Shown: positions 4,464 through 37,061 of the stretch, in pieces
Layout of the letters: each line of letters starts with the position of its first letter
How positions within the stretch are numbered: position 1 is the stretch's first letter
NCBI GenBank assembly: GCA_021770785.1
Contig: JAETQH010000021.1
Coordinates: forward strand, 1 to 64,000
Direction: 5' to 3'
DNA from: Lachnospiraceae bacterium
Lineage (GTDB): Bacteria > Bacillota > Clostridia > Lachnospirales > Lachnospiraceae
Length of the DNA: 64,000 nt
Position numbers and translations under genes: made by a program
The notes under the pieces: generated by a model
What the model was told of the DNA's origin: nothing
Database searches by the model: none
What the model saw: the letters and a program-made list of their open reading frames with translations, nothing else

Positions 4464-4811
4464 CTATGTATATAATTCCAGACTGATTTCCAGTGCCTTA
4501 TCAATTTTCACCAAAATCTGATTGTCTAAGTGACATACTTTATCTTTCAGCCGCTTCTTATCAATGGTGCGAAGCTGCTCTAACAGAACCACCGAATCCT
4601 TTACCAAATCGTATTTTCTGCTGTCCAGCTCCACATGGGTCGGCAGCTTTGCTTTATTCATCTGGGATGTGATTGCCGCACAGATTACCGTAGGGCTGTG
4701 ACGGTTTCCCACATCATTCTGTATAATCAGAACAGGCCGTACTCCTCCCTGCTCCGAACCAATCACCGGCCTTAAGTCGGCATAAAAAATATCACCGCGT
4801 CGAATTACCAT
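4464..4811 (-). CDS. ndoA: MazF/PemK (EndoA) family mRNA interferase
   Basis: [48 protein letters not shown]; start set at the internal Met. Confidence 0.92.
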
Positions 4812-4896
4812 ATACTTTCCACTCCATATTATTTCTATTTCAGATAGATTTTCCATCTAGGGATAGTATTGCCAATTTTACCGGGTGTATTCCATT

Positions 4897-18323: not shown

Positions 18324-20414
18324 CTATGCCTCTATATCCTCTACCTTTCCTGCCCTTGCCGCAATCTCCTTCTCCTGAATATCGGAAGGAGTCTGCTCAT
18401 ATCTGGCAAATTCATAGGAATAGGTTCCGCTGCCGCCTGTCATGGATCTTAAATCGGTGTTGTAACCGTAAAGCTCCATGTAAGGAATATCCGCAAGGAT
18501 TTCCTGGTAGCCTCCGTCCACAGGGTTCATGCCAAGAACACGTCCACGGCGCTTGTTTAAGTCTCCCATCACGTCTCCGGTGTATTTGTCCGGAACAACA
18601 ACCTTTAAGGTGGCGATGGGCTCCAATAAAATCGGAGAAGCATCCATAATACCTTTCTTGAATGCCCCAAGGGCAGCTACCTTAAATGCCATCTCGGAAG
18701 AGTCAACCGGATGATAAGAGCCGTCATAGAGTACCGCTTTGATACCGACTACCGGATATGCCGCCATAGGACCTTTTAAGACACCTTCCTGAATGCCCTT
18801 TTCCACTGCCGGGAAATAGTTTTTCGGAACTGCGCCGCCCACCACAATCTGTTCAAAGACATAGGGCTGCTCTAAATCCCCGGAAGGCTCAAAGGTCATC
18901 TTAACGTGTCCGTACTGTCCGTGTCCGCCGGACTGTTTCTTGTACTTGTACTCCACATCTGCTTTTTTGCGGATTGTTTCGCGGAAAGCAACCTTCGGTT
19001 TTTTCAGTTCTATTTCTACTTTGTAACGTTCTAACAATTTACTTGCCACAACTTCTAAGTGCTGGTCACCCATGCCGTAAAGCAAAGTCTGACCGTTTTC
19101 ACTGTCATTGACTGCCTTTAAGGTCAAATCCTCCTGCATTAATTTCTGCAACGCCTGGGAAATTTTATCCTCGTCTCCCTTATTGACAGCTTTGTATCTT
19201 TTGTACGTATACGGGGTAGAAATGCTGGTTCTGATATAGAGCACAGGGTTAGCCTTTGTAGAAAGGGAGTCTGTGGTCTCCGCCTTTGACAGCTTTGCTA
19301 AGGCTCCGATATCCCCTGCATGAAGCTCCTTTACTTCCTCCGGCTTATTGCCCCGCAGTACATACAGTTTTCCGATTTTTTCTTCTGTGTCCTTGTGATG
19401 GTTAAACAGCACATCATCGGTCTTAATGACGCCGGAATTTACCTTAATTAATGAATATTTTCCAATAAAAGGATCTACAATGGTTTTGAAAATATAAGCA
19501 GACTTCGGTTTTGCAAAGTCGTAATCTGCCTGATAAACTTCATTGGATTTCGCATTGATACCGGTGCAGGAACGTTTTTCGGGGCTTGGCAGATATTTCA
19601 CAATGTCTACCATCAGTGTGTACATACCTCTTGCCAATACATTTGAGCCCATCAATACCGGAACAATACTTCCCTCTGCTACGTTTACACGCAATGCCTG
19701 ACGAATCTCGTCTTCTGAAAATTCTTCTCCGCTAAAATAACGGTCCATAAATTCTTCGCTGGTTTCCGCAACCGCTTCCATCAATGCTTCCCGGCAGATT
19801 CCTAAATTTTCCTGGGAGTAATCGGGAACGTCGGTCTTTTCCACTTCGCCGTTATCCTTCCAGCGTTTTGCCCGCTGCTGTAACACATTGACATAGCCCA
19901 CAAACTGTCCGTTCTCACGGATAGGCAGATGGAACGGAGCAATCTTTTTGCCATAAAGCTCCTGCAAATCCTCCACTACCTGACGATAGCTTGCCTCATC
20001 AATGTCCATATCCGTTACGAACACCATACGGGGCAGACGGTACTTTTCGCAAAGCTCCCATGCCTTTTTTGTTCCCACCTCAATGCCAGCTTTCCCGGAA
20101 ACAACGATAATGGCTGCATCCGCTACGCTGACTGCCTCTTCCACTTCACCTACAAAATCAAAATAACCAGGTGTATCAAGAATGTTAATCTTTGCATCTT
20201 CCCAGATAATCGGAACCACAGAAGTGTTGATAGAAAACTGGCGTTTTGTCTCTTCTTTGTCGTAATCACTTATGGTATTGCCGTCAGTAACTTTTCCCAT
20301 ACGTGTTGTCATTCCCGCAAGATAAGCCATCGCTTCCACGAGACTTGTCTTGCCACACCCCCCATGGCCGAGTAAAACCACATTGCGAATTTTGTCAGTT
20401 GTGTAAACGTTCAT
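18324..20414 (-). CDS. Elongation factor G-like GTPase
   Basis: 'NVVLLGHGGCGKTSLVEAM', 'NILDTPGYFDFVGEV', 'SGGHGQYGHVKMTFEP'. Confidence 0.93.
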   Translation of the reverse strand: MNVYTTDKIRNVVLLGHGGCGKTSLVEAMAYLAGMTTRMGKVTDGNTISDYDKEETKRQFSINTSVVPIIWEDAKINILDTPGYFDFVGEVEEAVSVADAAIIVVSGKAGIEVGTKKAWELCEKYRLPRMVFVTDMDIDEASYRQVVEDLQELYGKKIAPFHLPIRENGQFVGYVNVLQQRAKRWKDNGEVEKTDVPDYSQENLGICREALMEAVAETSEEFMDRYFSGEEFSEDEIRQALRVNVAEGSIVPVLMGSNVLARGMYTLMVDIVKYLPSPEKRSCTGINAKSNEVYQADYDFAKPKSAYIFKTIVDPFIGKYSLIKVNSGVIKTDDVLFNHHKDTEEKIGKLYVLRGNKPEEVKELHAGDIGALAKLSKAETTDSLSTKANPVLYIRTSISTPYTYKRYKAVNKGDEDKISQALQKLMQEDLTLKAVNDSENGQTLLYGMGDQHLEVVASKLLERYKVEIELKKPKVAFRETIRKKADVEYKYKKQSGGHGQYGHVKMTFEPSGDLEQPYVFEQIVVGGAVPKNYFPAVEKGIQEGVLKGPMAAYPVVGIKAVLYDGSYHPVDSSEMAFKVAALGAFKKGIMDASPILLEPIATLKVVVPDKYTGDVMGDLNKRRGRVLGMNPVDGGYQEILADIPYMELYGYNTDLRSMTGGSGTYSYEFARYEQTPSDIQEKEIAARAGKVEDIEA

Positions 20415-20737
20415 AGTAAATCCTCCATATTTTTGTTATTTACAACAACAAGAAATTACGTCACCTGCAATCATATTGTAGCAATTATATTATTGCTGCA
20501 ATGGTATTGCTGCATTGCTGTATGGTTATATTTTACTAAATCAGAACGCTTTTTACAACTTATTTATTCATTTTCACTAACTATATTTACAATAACATAT
20601 GTTTGTTTATATATTATGTATGCTTTTTAAATAATTTATAACCATTCTTATTAAAGTTTTACATAAAGTTCACAGTCCGGACATATTTTATCCATCATAA
20701 CCCGTCTGAACTCCTGCCGCTTTTATACTTTAACGTG

Positions 20738-20874
20738 TTGACTTTTTTTAAGGAAATGTCTATGATAATCTTAATACGAAAGCAAACCATTGATTCGGGA
20801 GAAAAACCAGCCGACTTTTGCCCCCCGAATCAATACCGACTTTTACATAAACTTTTATCTGGGGGTATTTTCGC
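20738..20874 (+). promoter_or_regulatory. Sigma-A-like promoter and structured leader upstream of tyrA
   Basis: TTGACT (20738)-17 nt-TATGAT (20761); leader has perfect 10-bp IR TTGATTCGGG (20790-20799)/CCCGAATCAA (20824-20833); GGGGG SD before ATG. Confidence 0.6.
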
Positions 20875-21972
20875 ATGTCACTGAATAAAATTGGTTTTAT
20901 CGGATTAGGACTGATTGGAGGTTCCATTGCAAAAAAACTGCATTTACTTCACCCGTCATTAACCATTATTGCCACGGCGGGACATATAGAAACTATAGAG
21001 GAAGCCTACGCAGAGCATTTGATTGCCAATCAGACCTTCTGCGGCATGGAGGATTTTACGGACTGTGATTATATCTTTTTATGCACTCCTGTTCAGAGAA
21101 ATATTGAATATTTAAGGCAGTTAAAGGACGTGATTTCACCGGACTGCATCATTACAGACGTGGGCAGTGTCAAAACAGAAATTCATAAAGAAGTAACCGC
21201 CCTGGGTTTAGAGAAAAATTTTATTGGCGGCCACCCCATGGCAGGTTCGGAAAAAACCGGGCTTTCTAGCGCTTCAGATTCACTTCTGGAAAATGCCTAC
21301 TATATTATTACGCCTACGGCAGAGACTTCACCGGAAACCTTAGCGGATTTTACCGAACTGGTGACTTCCTTAGATGCCATTCCCTTAGTGCTTGACTATG
21401 AGCTGCACGATTACGCCACCGCCGCCATCAGCCATTTGCCCCACATCATCGCCTACAGCCTTGTGAATCTGATTAAAGAATCGGACGATGCGGGGGAAAC
21501 CATGAAAACCATTGCGGCAGGCGGATTTAAGGATATTACCAGAATCGCTTCCTCCTCCCCTGTCATGTGGGAAAATATCTGCCTTTCTAACCGGGAACAG
21601 ATTTTAAAGCTGATAGACGCTTATGTTGAAATGCTGTTAAAGACCCGGAAAGACATTGAGAATAAAAATGAACAGGCGTTGATTGACAGCTTTTCTTCAG
21701 CAAAGGACTACCGTGATTCCATTACCATCAGCCCGAAAGGCGTCCTTAAGAATGTTTATGAGCTTTACCTTGATTTACTAGATGAAGCCGGGGGAATTGC
21801 CACGGTGGCAACGATTTTAGCCAGCAACCATTTAAGCATTAAAAATATCGGCATTATCCACAACCGGGAATTTGAAGACGGTGTTCTGCGATTAGAGCTG
21901 TATGACGCAGAGGCATTAGAAGCTGCGGTGGAGCTTTTGAAAAAACATCATTATACGATTTATGAACGTTAA
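20875..21972 (+). CDS. tyrA: Prephenate dehydrogenase with C-terminal ACT-like region
   Basis: 'IGFIGLGLIGGSIAKKL', 'GGHPMAGSEKTGLSSA', C-terminal 'GGIATVATILASNHLSIKNIGI'. Confidence 0.94.
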   Translation: MSLNKIGFIGLGLIGGSIAKKLHLLHPSLTIIATAGHIETIEEAYAEHLIANQTFCGMEDFTDCDYIFLCTPVQRNIEYLRQLKDVISPDCIITDVGSVKTEIHKEVTALGLEKNFIGGHPMAGSEKTGLSSASDSLLENAYYIITPTAETSPETLADFTELVTSLDAIPLVLDYELHDYATAAISHLPHIIAYSLVNLIKESDDAGETMKTIAAGGFKDITRIASSSPVMWENICLSNREQILKLIDAYVEMLLKTRKDIENKNEQALIDSFSSAKDYRDSITISPKGVLKNVYELYLDLLDEAGGIATVATILASNHLSIKNIGIIHNREFEDGVLRLELYDAEALEAAVELLKKHHYTIYER

Positions 21973-22005
21973 AAACGGCGGGGCTTTAAGTCCCCGCCGT
22001 TTTTA
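21971..22005. terminator. Bidirectional terminator; overlaps the 3' end of the HipA-like ORF
   Basis: AAAAACGGCGGGGCTTTAAGTCCCCGCCGTTTTTA. Confidence 0.93.
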
Positions 22006-23182
22006 CGTTTAGTTTGCTCTGTTGCCGGTCAAGCGATGCACCCTCCGGGTATGTTTTTATTCCAAGTTCCTTTGCCCTACTCATAAATGAATGATAGTGT
22101 GATTTTACAATAAAATCCTCCGGCTCTATCTCACCGGTAAAATGGAAATCTGTTCTCTTCATAGCCATATGAGCTAACTCACTCATTGTTTTACTGCTAT
22201 CAAATAGTGATTGTCCTCCGGTACTATCATTCATTAAAGCCCTGTCGAAAGAATTATTATGGTCAAACAGAGGATGGCAGCCAACTATTTCCATGTCGTT
22301 ACAATGATACCAAAATCCCCAGTTCTGCCCATGTCTATCTCTGTTACTTATCAGGTAATCTACAATCAACATTTTGTATATGCTGTCTTTGTCTATTTTC
22401 ATTATCTCTGTCCCAAAATCCATCCCATTTACATTGCAGTATGATGCAAAGTCCATTGCACTTAGCATACTCAAATCCTCATCTGTCATACATTCACACT
22501 TACAGCAGTAAACTTTTTCATCCATTGCTTTACTGTATTTTAAATGCCTCACATTGCACTTATCCAGTATATTTGATACCTCCACTTCTATTCTGGCCTC
22601 GTCGTCCCCATTTGCCCCTTTTTTGTACAGATACAACTGCCCGTTCTCTCGTCTCCAGCACTTCGCATATGCTCCATTTGTTGTAAGTTCCGGTGTATGA
22701 ACCTTACCCTGAAGCGTTAAACTTGACCCATGTAAAGCTACCTGTGCCACTATTTCACTCAGCTTGTTCTGCCTCAAGTCAACCTCAAACCAACTTACCC
22801 TGTCATCCTCCGACTTGACCCAGTAGTTATCCTGCAATGACACTGCCCTGCAAGTCAATGCCACTTTTGCTCTATACTCCGGTGATTGAGCCTGTTCAAG
22901 TCCAAGTAATCCGAGTATCTTCTTAGCATTATCCCTATCCAATGGGAGAACCCTAGACGATAAGAAAGATATAATAGCATCTCTGCAACTGTTTGCCGCT
23001 ATAGCCATCTGTGTTGCATTGTATCTGCCTTCTTTACTTGGGTCATATTCATACTGCCTCAATTTCCCCTTGATTTGATATGGTATATGCCTCTCACTCA
23101 ACACCTCGTATATTAATGCATCGAAATTTATCCTCATAACCGGTATGTCTTTCATCATCAGTATTAAATTATCCGTCACCAT
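21986..23182 (-). CDS. HipA-fold kinase-like protein adjacent to the Wadjet operon
   Basis: 'LISNRDRHGQNWGFW' and 'CHPLFDHNNSFDRAL' match HipA catalytic-loop and metal-binding motif layout; 'LYLYKKG...EVEVSNILDKC' nucleotide-binding region. Confidence 0.72.
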   Translation of the reverse strand: MVTDNLILMMKDIPVMRINFDALIYEVLSERHIPYQIKGKLRQYEYDPSKEGRYNATQMAIAANSCRDAIISFLSSRVLPLDRDNAKKILGLLGLEQAQSPEYRAKVALTCRAVSLQDNYWVKSEDDRVSWFEVDLRQNKLSEIVAQVALHGSSLTLQGKVHTPELTTNGAYAKCWRRENGQLYLYKKGANGDDEARIEVEVSNILDKCNVRHLKYSKAMDEKVYCCKCECMTDEDLSMLSAMDFASYCNVNGMDFGTEIMKIDKDSIYKMLIVDYLISNRDRHGQNWGFWYHCNDMEIVGCHPLFDHNNSFDRALMNDSTGGQSLFDSSKTMSELAHMAMKRTDFHFTGEIEPEDFIVKSHYHSFMSRAKELGIKTYPEGASLDRQQSKLNVKTAGT

Positions 23183-23263
23183 ATCACCACCTCAAATTAA
23201 ACACTAGACTTTCATCTATGATAAGAGCCAAACACTAATTTCAGTCTCTATACAAAGCCCCAT

Positions 23264-26200
23264 CTAAAAAATCAACTCCTGCTGCTCCATCACTTCAATT
23301 CTGGCTGCAATGATTGTTTCTTCCTCGGAGCCCCGCATATGGTCTGCCTTAAGATACTGCATATCATTTCGGAGATTCGCTGCAATCAGTGTCAATACAT
23401 AAATATTATCAAACTGATTGTAAATGGATTCCCCTCCCAGTCCGGACAGACAGATTAACTGTGTATTTGTCTTTTTTGCCATGTCCATCAACGGTTTCAG
23501 CAGATGGGAAGCATTTGTCTGGGCAAAGGGATTATCCATGACGAGTACCTTTCCTTCGTTGCGGTCTGCAAAAATATCCGTATCATCTCTGCGCATATAA
23601 TAAAGCAAAGCAGAGAGTATGACAAATGCAGACAGAAAGCCTTCTCCGCCGGAGTTTCTCGCCACATCTGCCCAGGTAATGGCATACTCCCGCTGCTCTT
23701 CAATCTTATACAGGCGAATCTGTACATTTCCGATTCCTACCACCGCATCATACAGGCTTTTTGTCGTCACCTTCGTACCAAGATATTCTTGTACATTTTT
23801 ATTTTCTTCCAACAAAGCAATTCCCTTCGCCGTGATATCGTCAATATAATCCTGCAGACGCAGCTCATAAAGGCTTTCATTTTCTGCCCAGTCCGGTAGT
23901 TCTATTTTTAACATTTTTACAGGACGTTCCCTTATGGTAATCGTGGAATTGTGGTCAATTTTGTTTAAGTTTTCGTGTACCTCTTTCAGGTAATCTCCAA
24001 ACAGTTCTACGATTTTTGCCTTTTCCTTTTCTACCATGGAAATGTCCACCAGCAATTTTTCCATCAGATTTTGATAAGAGGCGATTGTCGTATCAAGCTG
24101 CTTTATCACACGCATGGCATCATAGGTTAACTGCAGCATGGATTCCAGTGGCTTCTGGTAAAATTCTTCTGCGAAAAGCTCCATCCGGATAATCTGATTT
24201 AATACCCGCTCCAGTCCCAGACGTGCATCTCGGCGCTGCTCTACACAGGAATTATAATCCCGCACTAAAAGTCCTTTCTGCCTTGTCAGCTCCTGACCGC
24301 TCATAGCCGAAAAATCTACTTCCCACTCTATCGGATGATTACAGGTAAAATCCTCATATTCCGCCAAAGCGGTCAGATTGCTTTCATAATTCTGCAATTT
24401 CTTTAAGATACGGTTTGCTTCTTTCTGTTCCTCTTCTTTTTCATACTCTAATTTTTTGATGGTTTCTTTGAAATCTATGGTCTGGATATTAGCTTTTGCC
24501 ATCGGTGTTTCCTTCTGGCAGCGTTCCTTTAACTCCATAAATTTATTTTCCCGCTCCCGGCAAATCAGGGCATAGCAGATTTCTTCCTCACGAATCAATC
24601 CCTCTTTCTGACAGATTTTTCTCTCCTGCTCCTCTAAGCGTATTTCCTGATGTGTTTCCTCTTTCCTGTTATAGGTTACGCCAAGCCACATATCTTCAGA
24701 CAAATGGTACTTGTCCTTTAAATGCTCTAACTCTTTTAATGCCCTGTCATAACGCTTGCCCGCTGCCATGGCGCGCTCTTCTAATTCTCTCTGCTCCGCA
24801 TGGATTCCGTTGGTAATCACCTCGTAACGGACTTCTGCTTCTTTTGCACCCTCCGGTGTCAGTTCCTCTGTTTCTTCTGTTTCTGTCGGATATTGCTGAT
24901 AGCGTGACTGTTTTTTCTCGCATTCTTCCAATTCCCGCTCTAACAATATCAGACTGTTTTTTCCGGTATCTATCTTCTCTTCCAGTCGGCTGATTTTTTC
25001 TTTGAGCAGCTTTCTCTGATTCGCCAGACGTTCTTTTTCTTTTTGATTCTTCTCGAAAAGCCTGCGGTTTTCCTGATATTTCTCATAGCTCTCACAAAGC
25101 TGTTCAAAATCGATGAGCCTTCTATGCTGATAAAGTATCTCCTGCTCAAGTTCTGCAATCTGCTGTTCTCTCTTTGTCTGAAGGGTTTCCAGTTCCTCTG
25201 CTTCTTCCCGTTTCTTTAAAATTTCCTGATCTAATACAGCTAATTCCAGCTCCTGTCTGCCGAGTGTTTCTTTTACATCCTCGTAACTGCTTTTTGTCAC
25301 CTTCTGGCTTTTGATTTTTTCCTGTTTTTCAAAATACTCTGCGTATTCCTGTTTTTTCTGTGCAATGGACTTCTTTACTTTTTCTATCTGTGCCGCTTTT
25401 TCTGTCAGCATCTGCTGCAATTTTTCTTCTTCCAGCAGGTTGTCATTAAACCAGAGATAAAAGCTCAAATTTGCAAAAGAACGAACTGCCCCCTTTTGTT
25501 TTTCTTCTTTCTGTTCTAATTCTTCCCGGATTAAAATCGGAACCGGAACGGAAGTATATACCTGCTCCGGCAATTCTGCCAGATGTTCCAAATCATGTCT
25601 GGACAATATCAGGGAATAGGGAAGAAACGGATGCTCCTCTACCAGTTTTTTATTTTTCTTTACCGTATACTGGTTTCTCTTTAACCATTCCATGCCATAG
25701 ACAAAATGGATTCCCGACTCTTCTAACATTCTTTTAAATTCTTCCGAGAGTTCAAGCACTTCTCCTTCCGCTAACTTCCGGTATTCCTTTTCCAGTGCAT
25801 CGGATTCCTTCTCCAATCCCCGCCGGATTCTGTCGGTATCTGCAAGTTTCCGTTCTGCAGCCAGAAGGATTCTTTCCGTATGAAACTGCTCCGTCTGCTC
25901 CATGTTAAAATACTGCAGAATAACGCTCCGCTCTGACAATTCTGCTTCATAATCTGCAAGCTGCTTCTCTGCCATTTTCTTTTCGGATTCCAGCCGGATT
26001 TTATCCGCAGCTTTATCCTCAATCAGACGCTGAATACTCTTATGCTGTTTTTTGTACTGTTCTAATTCATTTCTTGCCCCTGTTTTTTTGCGTTCTGTTT
26101 CACCTGACTGTTTTTCATATTCCATCTGCCGGATTTTCAGTGTTCCGGTTTCATACTGGCCCAGTATATTTCTGCTCCAGTCCGCCTGATATTCCCGATT

Positions 26201-27673
26201 AAAATTTTCCTCTGTCTTATCAAATGCCTTAATTTCCGCCCGCAGTGCACCTGCCTGTTCGGATAGTTCTTTTTCTGATTTTTGCAGTTCCTCCGATTTC
26301 TTCTGCTCTAGCTGACGTTCCTGCATCATGCTTTGGATTTTGGCATGACACTGCTTTTTTTCCTCCTCTTTCCTGGAAAAATAGGTCCGGTAATATTTTT
26401 TCAGCCGGATTCCCAGACGATTTCTTTCCGGCTCTAAATCTTCTTCTTTTTTCCGGCACAAAAGCAGCCGCTGGTTTTCTCTGTCCAGCTCTTCTTTGCA
26501 TTCCGATACATTTTCCTGCCCTCTGGCACAAGATAAAATCTGAAGCTTTCGGGATATTTCGTCCTTCCCTTTCTCTAAGTTATCCTGCTCTATTTTCAGC
26601 ATTTCCAGATTACTTCCGCTGAAACGCTCCCGTTCTTCAATCTCATAAATCTCTTTGGATAACTTTTCATATTCCAAATGGGATAACTGCTGTTCTAATT
26701 CTTCCATCCGCAGTTCTGCTGCCTCATAATGTTGCTGTTCCTGCCCATTCCTCTTCTGAAGCTGATGGATAAAATCTGCAATCCGTGACTTCTGTTCTTC
26801 TAATCCATCAGATATCTCCTGATATTTTAACGCACTTTCTCTGATACGTTCTGCCTCCTGCCCAAAAGCATGGATGGTATCTCTGCGCTGGATTTTGGAC
26901 TGGTTGTCCTTATACTGCCCGGTGTATTTTTCCAAAATACTCTGGAATTCTTTCATCCGGCTCTTATCCTTATTCAGCTTGCTCTCCACAGCTTCTAAAA
27001 ACCACTTATCCACCAGACCCTTTTCATCCCTACAATCTGCAAACAGCTCGGAAAGACCGGACTCTTTCAGATTCACCTTTTTGATAATGCTTTCCCATTC
27101 CTTATAATAAATCTGGTATTCCGTCAATTTATCAAAATACTGCTTTGACTGTGCCGGATTATTCATGTCATAATAGAAAAACGGTACACTCCGCTCCCGC
27201 TTATAACTCTCAAAAAGCTGCCGGCAGACATGAAAACTTTTTAACGTAATATCTTTTTTTGTTTTTTCCACAACCGGAAGATGATAAATATCCTGTATAC
27301 AGCGTTCCTTGTATTCAGCAATGAAATTTATCGTTTCCAGTTCTTCCTGCCGCTCCTCGGAAATCTCCTGATTTTTACGAACCATCATACCTGTCAGTAC
27401 ATAGCCCGCATCCTGATCCAGTTTCCATTCCACCAATATAAATGCCGGTTTATTTGTGGTAAAATAACCAGAAAAAGGACGGTCCTTTGCATCCCGGTAA
27501 CGCTTATGCACAAAAGGTGCCGTCATCATTTGCACCAGAACGGATTTACCTCCTCCATTCCTAAGAGAAAGCAGGGTACTTTTTCCATTCATCTGAAAAG
27601 TTTCATCACTGATCCGGATGGCATTGTTATTATAATTTAAGTTAATAAAACGTACTGCATTTATTTTGCTCAT
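23264..27673 (-). CDS. jetC: Wadjet JetC: SMC/MukB-like ATPase
   Basis: 1469 aa; N-terminal Walker A 'SLRNGGGKSVLVQMM', very long coiled coil, C-terminal 'SGGEGFLSAF' and Walker B-like 'KVLVMDNPFAQTNASHLL'. Confidence 0.9.
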   Translation of the reverse strand: MSKINAVRFINLNYNNNAIRISDETFQMNGKSTLLSLRNGGGKSVLVQMMTAPFVHKRYRDAKDRPFSGYFTTNKPAFILVEWKLDQDAGYVLTGMMVRKNQEISEERQEELETINFIAEYKERCIQDIYHLPVVEKTKKDITLKSFHVCRQLFESYKRERSVPFFYYDMNNPAQSKQYFDKLTEYQIYYKEWESIIKKVNLKESGLSELFADCRDEKGLVDKWFLEAVESKLNKDKSRMKEFQSILEKYTGQYKDNQSKIQRRDTIHAFGQEAERIRESALKYQEISDGLEEQKSRIADFIHQLQKRNGQEQQHYEAAELRMEELEQQLSHLEYEKLSKEIYEIEERERFSGSNLEMLKIEQDNLEKGKDEISRKLQILSCARGQENVSECKEELDRENQRLLLCRKKEEDLEPERNRLGIRLKKYYRTYFSRKEEEKKQCHAKIQSMMQERQLEQKKSEELQKSEKELSEQAGALRAEIKAFDKTEENFNREYQADWSRNILGQYETGTLKIRQMEYEKQSGETERKKTGARNELEQYKKQHKSIQRLIEDKAADKIRLESEKKMAEKQLADYEAELSERSVILQYFNMEQTEQFHTERILLAAERKLADTDRIRRGLEKESDALEKEYRKLAEGEVLELSEEFKRMLEESGIHFVYGMEWLKRNQYTVKKNKKLVEEHPFLPYSLILSRHDLEHLAELPEQVYTSVPVPILIREELEQKEEKQKGAVRSFANLSFYLWFNDNLLEEEKLQQMLTEKAAQIEKVKKSIAQKKQEYAEYFEKQEKIKSQKVTKSSYEDVKETLGRQELELAVLDQEILKKREEAEELETLQTKREQQIAELEQEILYQHRRLIDFEQLCESYEKYQENRRLFEKNQKEKERLANQRKLLKEKISRLEEKIDTGKNSLILLERELEECEKKQSRYQQYPTETEETEELTPEGAKEAEVRYEVITNGIHAEQRELEERAMAAGKRYDRALKELEHLKDKYHLSEDMWLGVTYNRKEETHQEIRLEEQERKICQKEGLIREEEICYALICRERENKFMELKERCQKETPMAKANIQTIDFKETIKKLEYEKEEEQKEANRILKKLQNYESNLTALAEYEDFTCNHPIEWEVDFSAMSGQELTRQKGLLVRDYNSCVEQRRDARLGLERVLNQIIRMELFAEEFYQKPLESMLQLTYDAMRVIKQLDTTIASYQNLMEKLLVDISMVEKEKAKIVELFGDYLKEVHENLNKIDHNSTITIRERPVKMLKIELPDWAENESLYELRLQDYIDDITAKGIALLEENKNVQEYLGTKVTTKSLYDAVVGIGNVQIRLYKIEEQREYAITWADVARNSGGEGFLSAFVILSALLYYMRRDDTDIFADRNEGKVLVMDNPFAQTNASHLLKPLMDMAKKTNTQLICLSGLGGESIYNQFDNIYVLTLIAANLRNDMQYLKADHMRGSEEETIIAARIEVMEQQELIF

Positions 27674-27674
27674 G

Positions 27675-28379
27675 TTATCCCTCCAGTACCCGTCTGACTC
27701 TCTGGAAATTGTTCTGATTCAAAAGATTCCAGTCCATAAAATTATCCAGCTTCTTTGTCGTCTTAATCATCTCATCTTCTTCCACATACTCAATCAGCCC
27801 CTGACGCTCTAAGAAATTTAAAAGATTGTACAAAAACCCTTCTTTGGTTGTTTTTGCCCGGGAGCCCTTTTCGTCAGAACGGAGCGCCTCATATGCTTCT
27901 AACATATTGGAAAAAGCGATTCCCGCCTGCTCTTCCTCTTCTTCACTGACCCGCTCTGTTCCTTCTTTGAGCCGGGTGGAAATACAGTTTTGCAGTTCTC
28001 CTACCCGCATATAATCTCTCGTCTTACTGGTGGCTCCCTGACCGTCATAAAACTCTGTCAAAAGCGTCAATATAACGAACTGGGAGAGATAATAGTCTTT
28101 ATCCGTCCCGTTTGATTTGCACAATGCCTGTTTTAGCTGTGCTTTGGAAAAGCCAAGAAAGGTATTATCTTCTCTGGGAATCAGATAAATCACATTACCG
28201 TACCGTTCAATATCACACTCTGCAATCTCTCCCTGGGATTTTACCAGGTTCTGAATCCGCTCACTTTCCGCATATGCGCGGTACAGCCGCTCCTGATTTT
28301 CTTCACTCATCTCATGATACTCTAACAGATAATAAAAAATCTCCTGTCCGATACGGATATCTTCTATTTCATATGCCAT
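27675..28379 (-). CDS. jetB: Wadjet JetB: MksE-like kleisin-associated (KITE) protein
   Basis: 234 aa ORF located 1 bp before jetC and 3 bp after jetA; wHTH-like. Confidence 0.82.
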   Translation of the reverse strand: MAYEIEDIRIGQEIFYYLLEYHEMSEENQERLYRAYAESERIQNLVKSQGEIAECDIERYGNVIYLIPREDNTFLGFSKAQLKQALCKSNGTDKDYYLSQFVILTLLTEFYDGQGATSKTRDYMRVGELQNCISTRLKEGTERVSEEEEEQAGIAFSNMLEAYEALRSDEKGSRAKTTKEGFLYNLLNFLERQGLIEYVEEDEMIKTTKKLDNFMDWNLLNQNNFQRVRRVLEG

Positions 28380-28382
28380 CTG

Positions 28383-30014
28383 CTATCCCTCCTGCCTTAC
28401 CCTGATAAGCACATTAGAACAACAGATGTTCTTTCTGTTTCCCGTGCCATCCTCTACATTTTCAAACGTAATCACCTTGCCGTCTTCCATCCGGTAAATT
28501 TCGATTTTTCTTATCTGCCGGATGGCATTCCATCCGGCATCTTCTACCAGCGACAAAATCATTTCGTTTAACCTAAAACCGCCGGAAAATTCACTGATAT
28601 ATTCCCGCCGTTCTTCTTTTAATTTTCTGATTTCAATTTCCCTGCTCTTTAGCAATTCAACCATGATTTCCTTGAAAATCTGCACATTTGGTATCAGCTC
28701 TTCCACATCTATATTTCCTTCTTCGATTCCGGTTTTCATTTCTTCCAGAGAAACCTCTCCCTGTTTGGATGTCATGGCTTTTTCTAACAGGCAGCCAAGG
28801 CTTTTTTCATATTTTGCCAGCTTTTCTTTCTGCCGCCTTTCCTCTTCTTCCATCCATACTTCATCACCAAATTCCATAATCTCTTCGGATGCTTCCGCTT
28901 CATTTTTGTGAACAGGCTTCTGCAGTTCTACGGCTTTGTTCAGATTATAAATCTTATCCGGCGTGTTTCCAAACAGCGGACGAAGAAATACCTCCAGCCG
29001 TTCTAACCCTTCCGGGTGTTCTAATATTTTTTCATATAAGTCATTTCGGATGGAAAACCTCCGGATATAAGACATCTGCGAAAGCTGCTCTAATTCTCTT
29101 GTATAAAGGGATTTCAAGTCGAAATGACTGCTTAAGATTTTCTGATGTTCATCAATCGTCCTGTTCAGATAATTTTCAATGATACCCAGATTTTTCAGCT
29201 TCCCTTCTTCCTTTTCGTCCAGCTTTCTAACATTTAGGTTCATATCTTCTAATTCTTTTGCCCGGCTCTTTACCAATTCTCTGTAATTTAAGAATTTCTG
29301 CTTGGTATCGCTGATGGTTTCTAAATTCTCATTGAGCACCGATTCATATTCTGCTACCGAGTAGCTCAATGCATTCCGCCGGATTCTTCCCATGGCCTCT
29401 TCCATCTTCTGAAGCTGGATGCGCAGAAGGTTAAACACATTTTTTATCTCATCCACAGCTTTGTCATAGCTCTGTTTTTCCAGGTGCATCTTAAAAATCA
29501 TTTCGTGGATGGTAAGCTTCATGTTGTTTTCAATTTCCAAAGTAGACAGTAAAAGATTATAGCCGTCCTCCGTCAGATAATAAGACGTTCTGCGCACTTC
29601 ATAGTCCACATAGACAATCCGGTTTGCCACATAGCTGACATTCATAATCTGATATGCCCTCTGTTCAAAATCAAATCCGTCAAAATACATGGCTTTCCCC
29701 TCATTAGAGAGAATGACATTGATGATAAAATCACCTAACTTCCTACAATCCTCATAGCTCATGTTTTTCTGAAAATAGCGCATATTCAGGTTGTCTAAGT
29801 ATGCTCCGATGTCATCCATCGTACAGTTTTCCTCTTTTAAAGACTGTTCCATCAGATACAGCATAACAGAAAAAATGACATTCATCTGCTCGTCTAATTT
29901 AAAAAAACCATATTGTTTCCAGATTGTTTTCTGACTGCTGTTTGCAATCAGAAGCACATAACGTCCCACATGCTTCATCCTCTTTGGAAACTGATTTAAA
30001 AATTCGTACTGCAT
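28383..30014 (-). CDS. jetA: Wadjet JetA: kleisin-like subunit
   Basis: 543 aa ORF with N-terminal wHTH-like region, central coiled coil, in jet operon. Confidence 0.84.
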   Translation of the reverse strand: MQYEFLNQFPKRMKHVGRYVLLIANSSQKTIWKQYGFFKLDEQMNVIFSVMLYLMEQSLKEENCTMDDIGAYLDNLNMRYFQKNMSYEDCRKLGDFIINVILSNEGKAMYFDGFDFEQRAYQIMNVSYVANRIVYVDYEVRRTSYYLTEDGYNLLLSTLEIENNMKLTIHEMIFKMHLEKQSYDKAVDEIKNVFNLLRIQLQKMEEAMGRIRRNALSYSVAEYESVLNENLETISDTKQKFLNYRELVKSRAKELEDMNLNVRKLDEKEEGKLKNLGIIENYLNRTIDEHQKILSSHFDLKSLYTRELEQLSQMSYIRRFSIRNDLYEKILEHPEGLERLEVFLRPLFGNTPDKIYNLNKAVELQKPVHKNEAEASEEIMEFGDEVWMEEEERRQKEKLAKYEKSLGCLLEKAMTSKQGEVSLEEMKTGIEEGNIDVEELIPNVQIFKEIMVELLKSREIEIRKLKEERREYISEFSGGFRLNEMILSLVEDAGWNAIRQIRKIEIYRMEDGKVITFENVEDGTGNRKNICCSNVLIRVRQEG

Positions 30015-30031
30015 CCTTTTTTCTCCCCTGC

Positions 30032-31030
30032 TTATTCCTTTTCGGTAAAATCTGTAATATTGATAATCTCCTGTGGAATATATTTTCCTGCGGTGAGAAT
30101 TTTCTGTATTTTTTCTGTTATTTCATCCGGGAAAAAACGAAAAAAAGTTCCTGAAATATTCCGGTTCTGTTTTTCACTTGTTTCCGGTAAAAAATCCATT
30201 CCACAGATTTCTGATTTTTGCAGCATTTTTTCATATGCCGCCACAAAGGGCATCAGGATATGGTCTTCTCCGAAAAGCTCTTTTAACCGCTCATAAATCC
30301 CGATTCCCTCATAGTCTAAATCACCGAAATACAAAATCCGGTTATCCCCGGCATTGATATACGACTCCACGCAGAAACCAAAGTCTTCAAAGGAACGTAA
30401 AATTCCCTTGCCAGCCCCGTAAATCACAGTTCCGATTGTTTCTCCTAAAATTTTTCTCCTGCCATTTAGCAGATACTTACGCATACTATAAAAAGTGTCT
30501 TTATTTTCCAGTATCAATATGGTCTGCGGAACCTCTTTACTGCAGGAATAATATGCCAATGGTTCCGTCGTATGATAGACATTTAACTGCTCTAAAGTTA
30601 CTCCGCAATGGGTCAAAATCTGTTTTCCCTGCTCCTTTTGCAAGAATTTTTCTCTTCCCCAGATTTGAAAACTCCGTTCGTTTACGGAAACCGGCTCCTG
30701 CTTCATTTCCCCATATTTCAAAAAATAGCGGTTTAAAAGCTTCACCCATTTTTCTTCCTTTTGGTAAACATCCGGATGCTTCAGATAGTAATCTGTCCGG
30801 ATTGCAGGCACCATTTGAAACTGCAGTTCTTCTATCTGCTCACGGTAATCGGGTTTTGGCTCGATTCTCCAGTAACTCAAATGCAGTGCAGGCTTCTTTC
30901 CATTCAGAAGTGAATTTTTAACCGCTTTGATTTTTTGTTGTTCTATTTGTTCACATATATACTGATATTGCTCTAAATAGGAATCTTTTCTGCTTTCCTT
31001 CATCAGCTGTTCTAGTGAAATCCGCTTCAT
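30032..31030 (-). CDS. jetD: Wadjet JetD: TOPRIM-type nuclease subunit
   Basis: 'TILILENKDTFYSM' and 'RILYFGDLDYEGIGIYERL' TOPRIM-like motifs; first gene of jet operon. Confidence 0.88.
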   Translation of the reverse strand: MKRISLEQLMKESRKDSYLEQYQYICEQIEQQKIKAVKNSLLNGKKPALHLSYWRIEPKPDYREQIEELQFQMVPAIRTDYYLKHPDVYQKEEKWVKLLNRYFLKYGEMKQEPVSVNERSFQIWGREKFLQKEQGKQILTHCGVTLEQLNVYHTTEPLAYYSCSKEVPQTILILENKDTFYSMRKYLLNGRRKILGETIGTVIYGAGKGILRSFEDFGFCVESYINAGDNRILYFGDLDYEGIGIYERLKELFGEDHILMPFVAAYEKMLQKSEICGMDFLPETSEKQNRNISGTFFRFFPDEITEKIQKILTAGKYIPQEIINITDFTEKE

Positions 31031-31112
31031 TTTGATAACCTTGTTTTACATCTTTCCTATTTTAGTGAAACGCCCCTATAGCGCTTTGTTACTGTCTTTA
31101 CCGACAGAGTAC

Positions 31113-32153
31113 CTATGATAGCTTCGTATCCGTAATCAGCATCGCATCCCCAAAGCTGAAAAAACGATACCTCTCCTGCACCGCAATCTCATAGGCATGA
31201 AGCACCTGCTCCCTGCCCGCCAAAGCAGACACCAGCATGACAAGTGTGGACTCCGGCAGGTGGAAATTCGTAATTAAGGAATCTATCACCTTAAACCGAT
31301 ACCCGGGATAAATAAATATCTCCGTCCAACCGCTGGTTTCCTTTAAAAATCCCTGCTCGTCCGCAGCGGATTCCAAGGTTCTGGTACTGGTGGTTCCCAC
31401 CGCAATCACCCGATGCCCTTCTCTTTTGGCACGGTTGATTTTATCCGCTTCCTCCTGGGTAATCTGATAAAATTCCGAGTGCATATGGTGCCTGAGCACA
31501 TCCGTTTCCTTCACCGGGCGGAAGGTTCCAAGTCCTACATGAAGAGTAACCTCCGCAATCTCCACCCCTAAATCCTGCACCTGCTGTAGCAGCTCCGGCG
31601 TAAAATGAAGCCCCGCCGTAGGCGCCGCCGCCGAACCGTCGTATTTTGCATAGACGGTCTGGTAGCGGTTCTTATCCGAAAGCTGGTGGGTGATGTAGGG
31701 AGGCAGGGGCATCTGTCCCAAACGGTCTAAGATTTCCTCAAAAATCCCCTCATAGTGGAACCGAATCAGACGGTTACCCTCTTCCACCACATCAATGATT
31801 TCTCCAATCAAAAGTCCTTCGCCGAATATAATTTTCGTTCCCGGCTTACATTTTTTTCCTGGCTTTACCAGGGTTTCCCAGATATCATTTTCCTTCCTTT
31901 TTAACAAAAGAATCTCAATCTTAGCTTCCGTCCCCTCTTTCACTCCGTAAAGCCTTGCAGGGATTACCCTGGTATTGTTAATCACAAGGCAGTCCCCCGG
32001 CTTTAAGTAAGAAAGAATATCACGAAATACCTTATGCTCCACCTCCCCGGTGTTTTTGTCAAGCACCATCAGGCGGGAGCCGGAACGGTCTTCTAAGGGG
32101 TCCTGTGCAATCAGTTCTTCCGGTAAGTCATAATAAAAATCTTTTACATCCAT
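31113..32153 (-). CDS. queA: tRNA preQ1(34) S-adenosylmethionine ribosyltransferase-isomerase
   Basis: '[27 protein letters not shown]', 'HYTFGLH'-region equivalent '[14 protein letters not shown]'. Confidence 0.96.
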
Positions 32154-34570
32154 TATTTTCTGAGTTCTGCCCCCATTCCCTCTAGGGCTTTCACAATCTT
32201 ATTCATCGCCCCTGTAATATCCGCCTCTTCTAAGTTTCTGTCCTTTGCACGGAAAGTAAGGGAGTAGGCAATGGATTTACAGCCTGCCTTTATCTGTGCG
32301 CCCTCATAAATATCGAAGAGCTGATAGCTCTCTAACAGCTTTCCGCCTTTGTTGTCAAATATTTTTTCAATATCTCCCGCTAAAACGCTCTTTGGTACAA
32401 TCATGGAAATATCACGGGTGGCAGCCGGGAATTTTGCAATGCCTTCATATTTATAATCGAAGGAAGCCCGTGCCACGATTTCCGGCATATCAATCACTGC
32501 CACATAAACACGCTCTTTGATGGAATAGTTGGAAGCCACCAGCGGATGAACCTCTCCCAAATAGCCGATGACGGTTCCGTCATAAACCACATTTGCCTGA
32601 CGTCCCGGATGAAGATAAGGTTTTCCTGCATTAGGATCATACTCCGGTTTTAGCTTCATGCCCACTTTGTATAAAAATTCTTCCACCACACCTTTCATCG
32701 TGTAAAAGTCACCCTCTCCGTACATTCCAAGGGTAAACTGCATTCTTTCCTCCGGCAGCTCTGTCACCGGAACCTGTTTCGGCAGATAAATATTTCCCAG
32801 CTCATAGAGACGTACGTCTTTATTCCTGCGGTTAAAATTGGTCGCTAAAAAGGTCAGCATACCGTTTAAGGAAACGGTTCTCATAATAGAGAAATCTTCT
32901 CCTAAAGGATTGCTGATAACCACCGTATTGCGCAGCGGCGAATCCGCCGGAATCAATAATTTGTCAAATACCTTCGGGCTTTCGAAGGAATAGGTCATCC
33001 CCTGAGAGAAGCCGCAGAACTCTGCAATATCTCTTGCCACTTCCTCAATGCGGAGCTTAAAGGTCAGTTTTCCGGTGGTTGCCTCGCCGCTTGGCAGAGT
33101 GGTTGGGATTTTATCATAGCCGAAGAAACGTGCCACTTCCTCCGCCAAATCCGCATCGCACTCTAAATCCTGTCTCCAAGACGGAATCAGCACTTCATTG
33201 GTGTTCTCGTCATAGCCTAACTCTAATTTTGCAAAATAGGAAAGCATGGTCTCTCTGCTGATGTCCGTTCCCAGCAATTTGTTGTATTTTTCCGGCTCAA
33301 AGGCAATTCTTCTGCCCTCTTTTTTCACCGGGTACACGTCAACGGCTCCGCCGACCACTTCCCCGGCGCCTAATTCCTCAATCAGCTGGCAGGCGCGGTT
33401 CATAGCCTCCATGGCATTGTTGGGGTCTAAGCCCTTTTCAAATTTGGAAGAAGCGTCTGTCCGAAGTCCCACCTTTTTGCTGGAAAGGCGGATATTGGTT
33501 CCGTCGAAACAGGCAGCCTCAAAAAGCATGGTTTTTACATTGTCTGTAATCATGGAGTTTTCGCCTCCCATGATACCTGCAATGCCTACGGCTTTCTTTC
33601 CGTCACAGATGACTAATACCGATTCGTCTAAGGTACGCTCCTGTCCGTCTAAGGTGACGAATTTCTCGTCTTTTGCCGCACGTCTTACCACGATTTCATT
33701 GTACTCGATGGTGTCTAAGTCATAGGCGTGCATGGGCTGTCCGTATTCCTCCATCACATAGTTGGTGATATCCACGATATTGTTGATGGGGCGGATTCCC
33801 TGTGCCCGCAGCCTGCGCTGCATCCATTCCGGCGATGGCTCAATTTTGATATTTTTTACCACCCTTGCGGTATATCGGGAGCAAAGGTCCGGGTCTTTGA
33901 CAGATACTTTAATATAATCGTTTACATTTTCATTGTTTCCGGTTTCCTTTACTACGGGAGGAATAAACTCTTTTCCGAAGGTAGCGGCTGCCTCCCTGGC
34001 AAGTCCAAGGACGGAAAAACAATCCACACGGTTAGAGGTAATCTCATATTCCACCACCGTGTCGTCTAATCCCAGATACTCCACAGCACTTACCCCCACC
34101 GGAGCGTCCTCCGGCAAAATATAAAGTCCGTCCTCCGGAGCTAAGGGGAACATATCACGGGTAGAGCCCAGTTCTTCAATGGAGCACATCATGCCGTTAG
34201 ATTCCACGCCGCGGAGTTTTCCCTTTTTGATTTTGATACCGCCCTCGGTTTTACTGCCGTCATGACCGCCTGCTACTTTACCGCCGTCTAACACTACAGG
34301 CACTTTGCAGCCCTCGGTGACATTCTGGGCACCTGTGACAATCTGGGTGGTTTCTGTGCCGATATCCACCTGGCAGATTACTAATTTATCTGCGTCCGGG
34401 TGTTTCTCGATACTCTTTACCTGACCGATGACAATTTTTTCAAGGTCTTTGTCCATGTTCTCATAACCCTCTACCTTAGAACCGGATAAGGTCATGGCAT
34501 CCATATATTCCTGGGGGGTACAGGTAAGCCCAGGTACTAAATCTTTGATCCATTTTAATGATGTATTCAT
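32153..34570 (-). CDS. pheT: Phenylalanine-tRNA ligase beta subunit
   Basis: '[15 protein letters not shown]', tRNA-binding region, B3/B4 and FDX-ACB-like C-terminus. Confidence 0.97.
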
Positions 34571-34621
34571 AAATTTTTTCTCTCCTAAATTTATATTTTT
34601 CTGCCCTTCTCGTTGCTTGCG

Positions 34622-35644
34622 CTAAAACTGATTCAGAAATCTCTGGTCGTTTTCGTAGAGAAGGCGCATGTCGTCGATTTCGTACTTGAGCAGGGCGATA
34701 CGCTCTAATCCGATACCGAATGCAAAACCGGAGTATTCCTCCGGGTCAATACCGCTCATGCGCAGCACCCTTGGATGAACCATACCACAGCCTAAAATCT
34801 CAATCCAGCCCTCGCCTTTACAGAAACGGCAGCCTTTTCCGCCGCATTTAAAGCAAGTCACATCCATCTCCGCAGAAGGTTCTGTAAATGGGAAATGATG
34901 GGGACGGAATTTTACCTTTGTATCTGCTCCAAAAAGCTGTCTTGCGAACTCGGCTAAAGTACCCTTTAAATCAGCAAAGGTAATATTTTTATCAATAACA
35001 AGTCCCTCAATCTGATGGAAGGACGGGGAATGGGTGGCATCCACTTCATCGGCGCGGAATACACGTCCCGGCGCAATCATACGGATAGGAAGCTTTCCTT
35101 TTTCCATCTCACGCACCTGTACCGGGGAGGTCTGGGTACGGAGCACGATTTTGTCATTGATATAGAAAGTATCCTGCTCATCCTTTGCGGGGTGGTTTGC
35201 CGGAATATTCAACGCTTCGAAGTTATAATAATCGTACTCTACTTCCGGGCCTTCCACTACCTCATAGCCCATTCCGGTAAAGATACGCTCCACCTCTTCT
35301 AAGGCAATGGTATTAGGATGGCGGTGGCCTACATTATTTTTCTTTGCAGGCAGGGTCACGTCAATGACCTCTTTTTTTAATTTTGCCTCCATCTCGGCGT
35401 TCTCTAATTTTGTTTTGGTTTCCTCTAATAATTTTTCAATGCTCTCACGGGTTTCGTTGACAAGCTGTCCCACCAGCGGGCGTTCCTCCGGACTGACATC
35501 CTTCATGCCCTTTAAAACTGCGGTCAACTCTCCTTTTTTCCCGAGAATTGCAACCCGGACATCATTTAATTTTGACAAATCACCGGATTCTAATATCTGG
35601 CGCATTGCCTCTTCTTTGATTTTCTGCAGCTTTTCTTTCATCAC
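34622..35644 (-). CDS. pheS: Phenylalanine-tRNA ligase alpha subunit
   Basis: '[31 protein letters not shown]', '[16 protein letters not shown]'. Confidence 0.97.
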
Positions 35645-35704
35645 ATTGCTCCTTTTTCTGCTTTTATTTTTCTTTTTTCGTTTTCTTACGCCAGGGCTCT
35701 TAAC

Positions 35705-35789
35705 ATCGAGTAGGGGAGAATCTTTCCCTACTCGCCGCGCGGGGTGCGTGCTGCGAAGCAGCAGTATACATTACGCACCCCTGTGCATA
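35705..35789 (-). repeat. Two-hairpin element, copy A, between pheS T-box terminator and pheS
   Basis: atcgagtagg-N12-cctactcgccgcgc-[GGGGTGCGT..ACGCACCCC with inner GCTGC/GCAGC]-tgtgcata; shares ends and layout with 55677..55763. Confidence 0.85.
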
Positions 35790-36100
35790 AAAAATCCGCG
35801 GCTTCTCTCGTCTGAGGGACGAAAAAATCCGCGGTACCACCCTATTTCTTTGCTCCTGACACAGTTCTCACTGTATAACAGCTATCGCTGCATAGCAACT
35901 CTCGCTGCATAGCAACTCTCGCTGCATAGCAACTCTCGTTGCATAGGAAAAAGCTCTTATTATGCGTAACGTGCACCAAACGTCATCTGCTACTAAAGTT
36001 CACAAATGCGGCTCCTGTGGGAAATTCGATTCCTACCTTTTCTTAAGCGGGCTTTCAGCCGATGACCTGCTCTCTCTAAAAGAAGTATAGTGCTCTACTG
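35785..36100 (-). promoter_or_regulatory. T-box riboswitch leader of pheST
   Basis: T-box motif AGGGTGGTACCGCGG (complement at 35829..35844) followed by CCGCGG..CCGCGG terminator and T-run; upstream stem I-like structured region. Confidence 0.93.
35861..35942 (-). repeat. Five tandem 17-nt hairpin units inside the T-box leader
   Basis: 14-nt hairpins at 35861, 35878, 35895, 35912, 35929; sense-strand stems GCAAC/GTTGC, GCAGC/GTTGC (x2), GCAGC/GCTGT, ACAGT/ACTGT with GAGA or GATA loops. Confidence 0.9.
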
Positions 36101-36191
36101 AGGTTCTATGAACCACACATTCACAGCCTTTTTCACAACAATTTGTTGTTCTCAACTCTAATCGGTATTTTAGCACAGCAGGCGGCAAACA

Positions 36192-37061
36192 TCAAGTATT
36201 TTTTTCCATAACCTGCTCTTTGTCTCTCTTCCTCTCTTTCATAAACCAGGCCGGGAAATAATCGTCAAAGAGCACGTTCACCTCTGCCGACATCATCATA
36301 ATATACATGCAGAAATACAGCCACAGCATAATGAGTGCAATGGTAGTCAGGCTCCCATACATGGAAAACCCGTTAAAATAGTCCACATAAACAGACAGTC
36401 CAAAGGAAAACAGATACCACGCCACCGCACAGATTGCCGCTCCGGGAAGCTGGCTCCGCAGGGTCAGTTTCCGGTTTGGCAGTGCTGTAAATACCACGTC
36501 AAAGAAAAAGATTAAAAATACCAGCATCCAAAGTCCGCGGAATCTGGCAAAAATGTCCACCAGATTAGTAATAAAGGGAAAATAATTCATTGCCAGATGA
36601 CGGATGCTGTTACCGAATACCAATACTAACAGGGTAAACAGGATTGCTACCAAAAACACAATGGTATATATCACTGCCCAGAACCGCAGCACAAACCAGT
36701 TTCTCGTTTCCTCTAAATCATTAACGGAATTTAACCCGTCCGTCATGTACTGCACGCCCTTAGCAGCCGACCAGATTGCCACCACCGCCGTGATGGAGAT
36801 AATTCCCACGGAACGGCTGTAAACTTCATCCACCAGGGAAATCAGAAAGGGAGACACATACTGCGGCATCACCTTCTCAATAATCTGAAACAGCATTCCC
36901 TTGGTAACGCTGGTGTACTGTAACAGCGAGGAAAATACCATCAAAAAGGGGATAATGGACAAAATAATAAAGAAAGCCGACTGTGCCGAATAAGCATTTA
37001 TCTTGTCTCTTTTACATTTATCCATAAAGGATTTTACATTTCCAATAATTTTCCAAATCAT
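36192..37061 (-). CDS. YihY/BrkB family membrane protein
   Basis: 'DKINAYSAQSAFFIILSIIPFLMV', 'AICAVAWYLFSFGLSVYVDYF'. Confidence 0.9.
   Translation of the reverse strand: MIWKIIGNVKSFMDKCKRDKINAYSAQSAFFIILSIIPFLMVFSSLLQYTSVTKGMLFQIIEKVMPQYVSPFLISLVDEVYSRSVGIISITAVVAIWSAAKGVQYMTDGLNSVNDLEETRNWFVLRFWAVIYTIVFLVAILFTLLVLVFGNSIRHLAMNYFPFITNLVDIFARFRGLWMLVFLIFFFDVVFTALPNRKLTLRSQLPGAAICAVAWYLFSFGLSVYVDYFNGFSMYGSLTTIALIMLWLYFCMYIMMMSAEVNVLFDDYFPAWFMKERKRDKEQVMEKNT

Follow-up and report, generated by a model that had tools for sequence, protein, structure and literature searches.

According to two papers (PMC10586767, PMC12647877), three types of Wadjet have been described, and in the systems studied DNA is extruded by JetABC, while small circular plasmids are cut by JetD after the extrusion is completed. 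Type III has so far received less attention than type I (PMC10586767). Hip kinases devoid of a partner gene are already on record as the monocistronic HipH and HipL (Gerdes et al. 2021, PMC8262856), and a partnerless Hip kinase is accordingly not new. Among the papers that mention both Wadjet and HipA, one deals with each of them on its own. The window analyzed here, which is a 64,000-nucleotide stretch of a Lachnospiraceae genome (contig JAETQH010000021.1), harbors one more intact type III Wadjet, next to which lies a solitary gene for a HipA/CtkA-fold kinase. All five genes are carried on the minus strand, and the four jet genes are intact.

The operon is constructed of jetD (30032..31030), encoding a TOPRIM nuclease subunit of 332 aa, jetA (28383..30014), encoding a kleisin-like subunit of 543 aa, jetB (27675..28379), encoding a KITE-like subunit of 234 aa, and jetC (23264..27673), encoding an SMC-like ATPase of 1469 aa that bears the motifs NGGGKS, SGGEG, and MDNPF. 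Each product matched its type III PADLOC family over the full length, namely JetD3 (1.9e-115), JetA3 (1.6e-257), JetB3 (1.8e-129), and JetC3 (E=0, 1979.6 bits), and in addition JetD exceeded the cut-off of Pfam JetD_C and JetB matched Pfam DUF6063 (2.9e-79). Since all four subunits are present, full length, and adjoining, the operon is typed as Wadjet type III, an assignment in which chance is no issue. The initial annotation, which had described a complete Wadjet operon of four co-directional genes and left the type unstated, is thereby borne out and made more precise. Moreover, every residue conserved in at least 95% of the sequences compared (23 JetD and 26 JetC) is kept, including the TOPRIM acidic residues E175 and D237-x-D239 of JetD and the ATPase motifs NGGGK, SGGEG, and MDNPF of JetC. 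The order D-A-B-C is that of the relatives, where jetD precedes jetA in 18 of the first 20 type III loci read (no jetD ORF was called in L076 and L086). The operon is thus a complete and ordinary Wadjet type III, and the sole difference found for the window locus resides in the gene 3' of jetC. By homology with the studied systems, JetABC would act as an SMC motor for DNA extrusion and JetD would cleave small circular plasmids, and plasmid restriction may be expected of the operon by analogy.

The gene 3' of jetC (21986..23182) encodes a protein of 398 aa with the motifs NRDRHGQNWG and PLFDHN, which scored below the curated Pfam cut-offs for both HipA_C (2.4e-4) and HipA_2 (5.9e-4). In an alignment of seven family members, K187, E199, N280, D282, R283, H284, and D307 are invariant, and the family profile retrieved CtkA (3akj) from the PDB at 3e-10. 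The AF2 model has a mean pLDDT of 74, and within the kinase core (residues about 190-370) ten-residue blocks lie mostly at 80-94, with one at 69 and one at 79; Foldseek returned CtkA as the best match of this model and HipA as the next. A kinase fold equipped with the catalytic Asp, the Asn, and the metal-binding Asp was therefore recognized, and the invariant residues, the profile match, and the structural matches together indicate that the protein is, as judged from sequence and model, a HipA/CtkA-fold kinase with intact active-site motifs, whose assignment as HipA-like is remote; the HipA-fold call of the initial annotation is thereby upheld. Its kinase activity and any influence on growth are presumed.

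CtkA is the closest solved structure and has the HipA-like kinase core in common with the window protein, which differs from it by an extra N-terminal region of about 170 residues ahead of that core; the modeled resemblance concerns the fold, and a CtkA-like role is neither claimed nor implied. With HipA of hipBA, the protein shares the kinase fold and the catalytic and metal-binding Asp motifs, whereas the whole-chain match is weak (TM about 0.4-0.47, 10-11% identity) and the gene, unlike those of hipBA modules, has no HipB partner. The initial annotation had already pointed to this lack, and indeed no HipB-like HTH antitoxin ORF was found among the adjoining ORFs; as no general partner emerged from 49 homologous contexts either, a hipBA toxin-antitoxin module was rejected. 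The protein resembles HipH and HipL, with which it was compared by features, in having no separate antitoxin gene, but it gave no Pfam match to the HIRAN domain found at the C-terminus of HipL and is thus not assigned to HipL. Two more HipA-like paralogues occur in the window's own genome (G000:C110 at L002 and G000:C229 at L003), the latter of which seemingly has an incomplete kinase N-lobe and is possibly degenerate.

It is highly probable that the locus combines an intact type III Wadjet with an independent, solitary HipA/CtkA-fold kinase that is its neighbour by chance or through a common island. The Wadjet occupies a variable chromosomal interval between the prephenate dehydrogenase gene and queA, which the kinase gene would have reached either fortuitously or through joint transfer on an island, without being a Wadjet component. 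Most likely the kinase would act alone as an independent Ser/Thr protein kinase, perhaps regulating growth as HipA does if its fold is a guide, and nothing links its function to plasmid restriction, even though it may be transcribed by read-through from jetC.

The interval itself was compared among relatives. In the window, the block of jet genes and kinase gene stands between prephenate dehydrogenase and queA, while genus-mates show the order fusA-like, prephenate dehydrogenase, aroA, pilZ, queA, and pheT, in which aroA-pilZ (named by sequence, without family search) takes the place of the block; in the nearest relative, G414, pilZ follows queA and galE follows prephenate dehydrogenase. Flanking repeats were considered as island boundaries and rejected, given that only short, imperfect repeats were detected and none of them stood out. 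The codon usage of the kinase gene is not clearly more deviant than that of jetB, and the gene is too short for this measure to decide.

A narrower version of the preferred explanation, whose probability is contained in that of the latter, holds that the kinase gene is of a defence or toxin type in its own right and shares a mobile island or a defence-prone site with Wadjet, the two being linked by transfer and not by mechanism. This we entertain as a tentative and somewhat doubtful possibility. It is consistent with the match of the kinase to the PADLOC candidate family PDC-M03A, with homologues on phage and plasmid records, and with occasional neighbours of a defence or toxin kind, such as the putative Fic-like genes, assigned by sequence, near HipA-like kinase genes at three or four loci (L090, L105, L144, L168) and the HEPN/MNT-like pair that accompanies three kinase-family genes in tandem at L090. 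A scan of viral contigs did not return the kinase. On the other side, the best PADLOC stretches mostly cover no more than about 50-150 residues on either side of and including the catalytic motif, and the kinase fold by itself may account for them. Neighbour clustering of the 49 kinase contexts, with flanks often shorter than 10 kb, disclosed no general recurrent partner, and in most of these contexts the neighbours were unrelated and often housekeeping. With no such partner and with homologues on phage and plasmid records, the family looks like one of dispersed, solitary kinases. Queried with type I and type III Wadjet, these contexts contained a single one, at L102, which is of type I and convergent to the kinase gene; there (L102:334-8219) a kinase of the window's family, 32% identical, overlaps the complete type I operon by a few bases. 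This case, together with that of L079 described below, fits a shared island as well. In three contexts a small ORF of 116-154 aa is located immediately upstream of the kinase gene (L106:8939-9403, L150:8154-8504, L155:8496-8921), which is a possible partner in one subclade; it was found neither upstream of the other kinase genes nor in the window.

Very unlikely, by comparison, is the proposal that the kinase is a lineage-specific Wadjet accessory, which would be produced from the jet transcript and would phosphorylate one of the Jet proteins or else a translation factor upon plasmid sensing, in the manner of regulation or an abortive response. Such a partnership, if true, would provide an SMC nuclease with a second effector arm. 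The layout is compatible with it: the kinase gene starts 81 bp after jetC on the same strand, as the initial annotation had it, and the catalytic motifs of its product are intact. The further remark that no terminator is evident holds as well, since neither a terminator-like site nor an unusual RNA structure (z 0.60) was found in the 81-bp gap, so that a hidden terminator or structured RNA was discarded there; a search of 20000-36500 gave no Rfam match. With no terminator in between, co-transcription is possible, and the kinase may be read through from jetC. A bidirectional terminator-like hairpin (21970..22005; 14 pairs, 8 G-C) is situated where the kinase gene meets the prephenate dehydrogenase gene, which converges on it; the hairpin encloses the last kinase codons, and is predicted to terminate both genes.

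The genome surveys speak against the accessory. In a survey of 397 genomes from the family to which the window belongs, homologues of the kinase (threshold E up to 1e-10) were detected in 93, the Wadjet marker JetA3 in 43, and both in 15, compared with about 10 expected if the two were independent. The kinase gene and the JetA3 operon are neighbours in the window's genome only. In one of the other 14 double-positive genomes, which consists of a single contig, more than 2 Mb separate the two, and in the rest they are placed on different contigs. Sampling 291 genomes across the class (kinase in 28, JetA3 in 16) yielded no further adjacent pair, the nearest other pair on one contig being 75 kb apart in one genome. 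As many of the surveyed genomes are drafts, in which pairs broken across contigs could escape, flanks were also read directly. The window's kinase family was not detected near any of 44 other type III loci, closest relatives included (20 read fully, 20 by marker search, and four genus-mates fully), among which the sequence of L068 stops just past jetC, that of L175 stops within the operon, and the most diverged, L181-L191, gave partial marker matches. The gene 3' of jetC varies by lineage and is the same in near-identical sisters such as L205 and L206. With the kinase family almost always away from Wadjet operons, the closest relatives without it, and a variable gene at this position, a Wadjet-kinase association finds no support; the conserved linkage was rejected, and the tempting partnership was removed as unsupported. 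Of the two roles that the initial annotation had offered, accessory or island neighbour, it is the latter that stands, and the outcome that it had named as decisive against a partnership, a kinase mostly away from Wadjet, is what both surveys revealed.

A point against the preferred reading of independent neighbours is that HipA-fold genes are not absent near Wadjet, as L102 and L079 attest. When the 43 Wadjet genomes were scanned for HipA_C, one other case near jet genes came to light, L079, the closest Wadjet relative (in G122), where a HipA-like gene that scores above the HipA_C cut-off, a 78-aa ORF without family matches, and an AbiEi-like gene (L079:14321-16223) lie 5' of jetD, forming a candidate toxin-antitoxin-like set. 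This gene near jetD could be counted in favour of an accessory; nevertheless, it belongs to a HipA family other than the window's and stands at the opposite end of the operon, and the next closest relatives, L205-L208, have no such HipA-fold gene. Least probable of all is an occasional recruitment of HipA-fold kinases from several families to sites beside Wadjet (as in the window, L079, and L102), where they would form a reserve arm for growth arrest or regulation, in the window by way of read-through from jetC.

Two further observations concern the surroundings of these genes. In two genus-mates, a serine-recombinase-like gene is placed 81-95 bp before jetD (L205:4013-4618 and L206:4148-4753, in jet orientation), which might serve to mobilize the jet cassette. 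Elsewhere in the window, a MazF/EndoA-like ORF (4464-4856), named from the start of its sequence, is positioned just downstream of an alanine-racemase-like gene.
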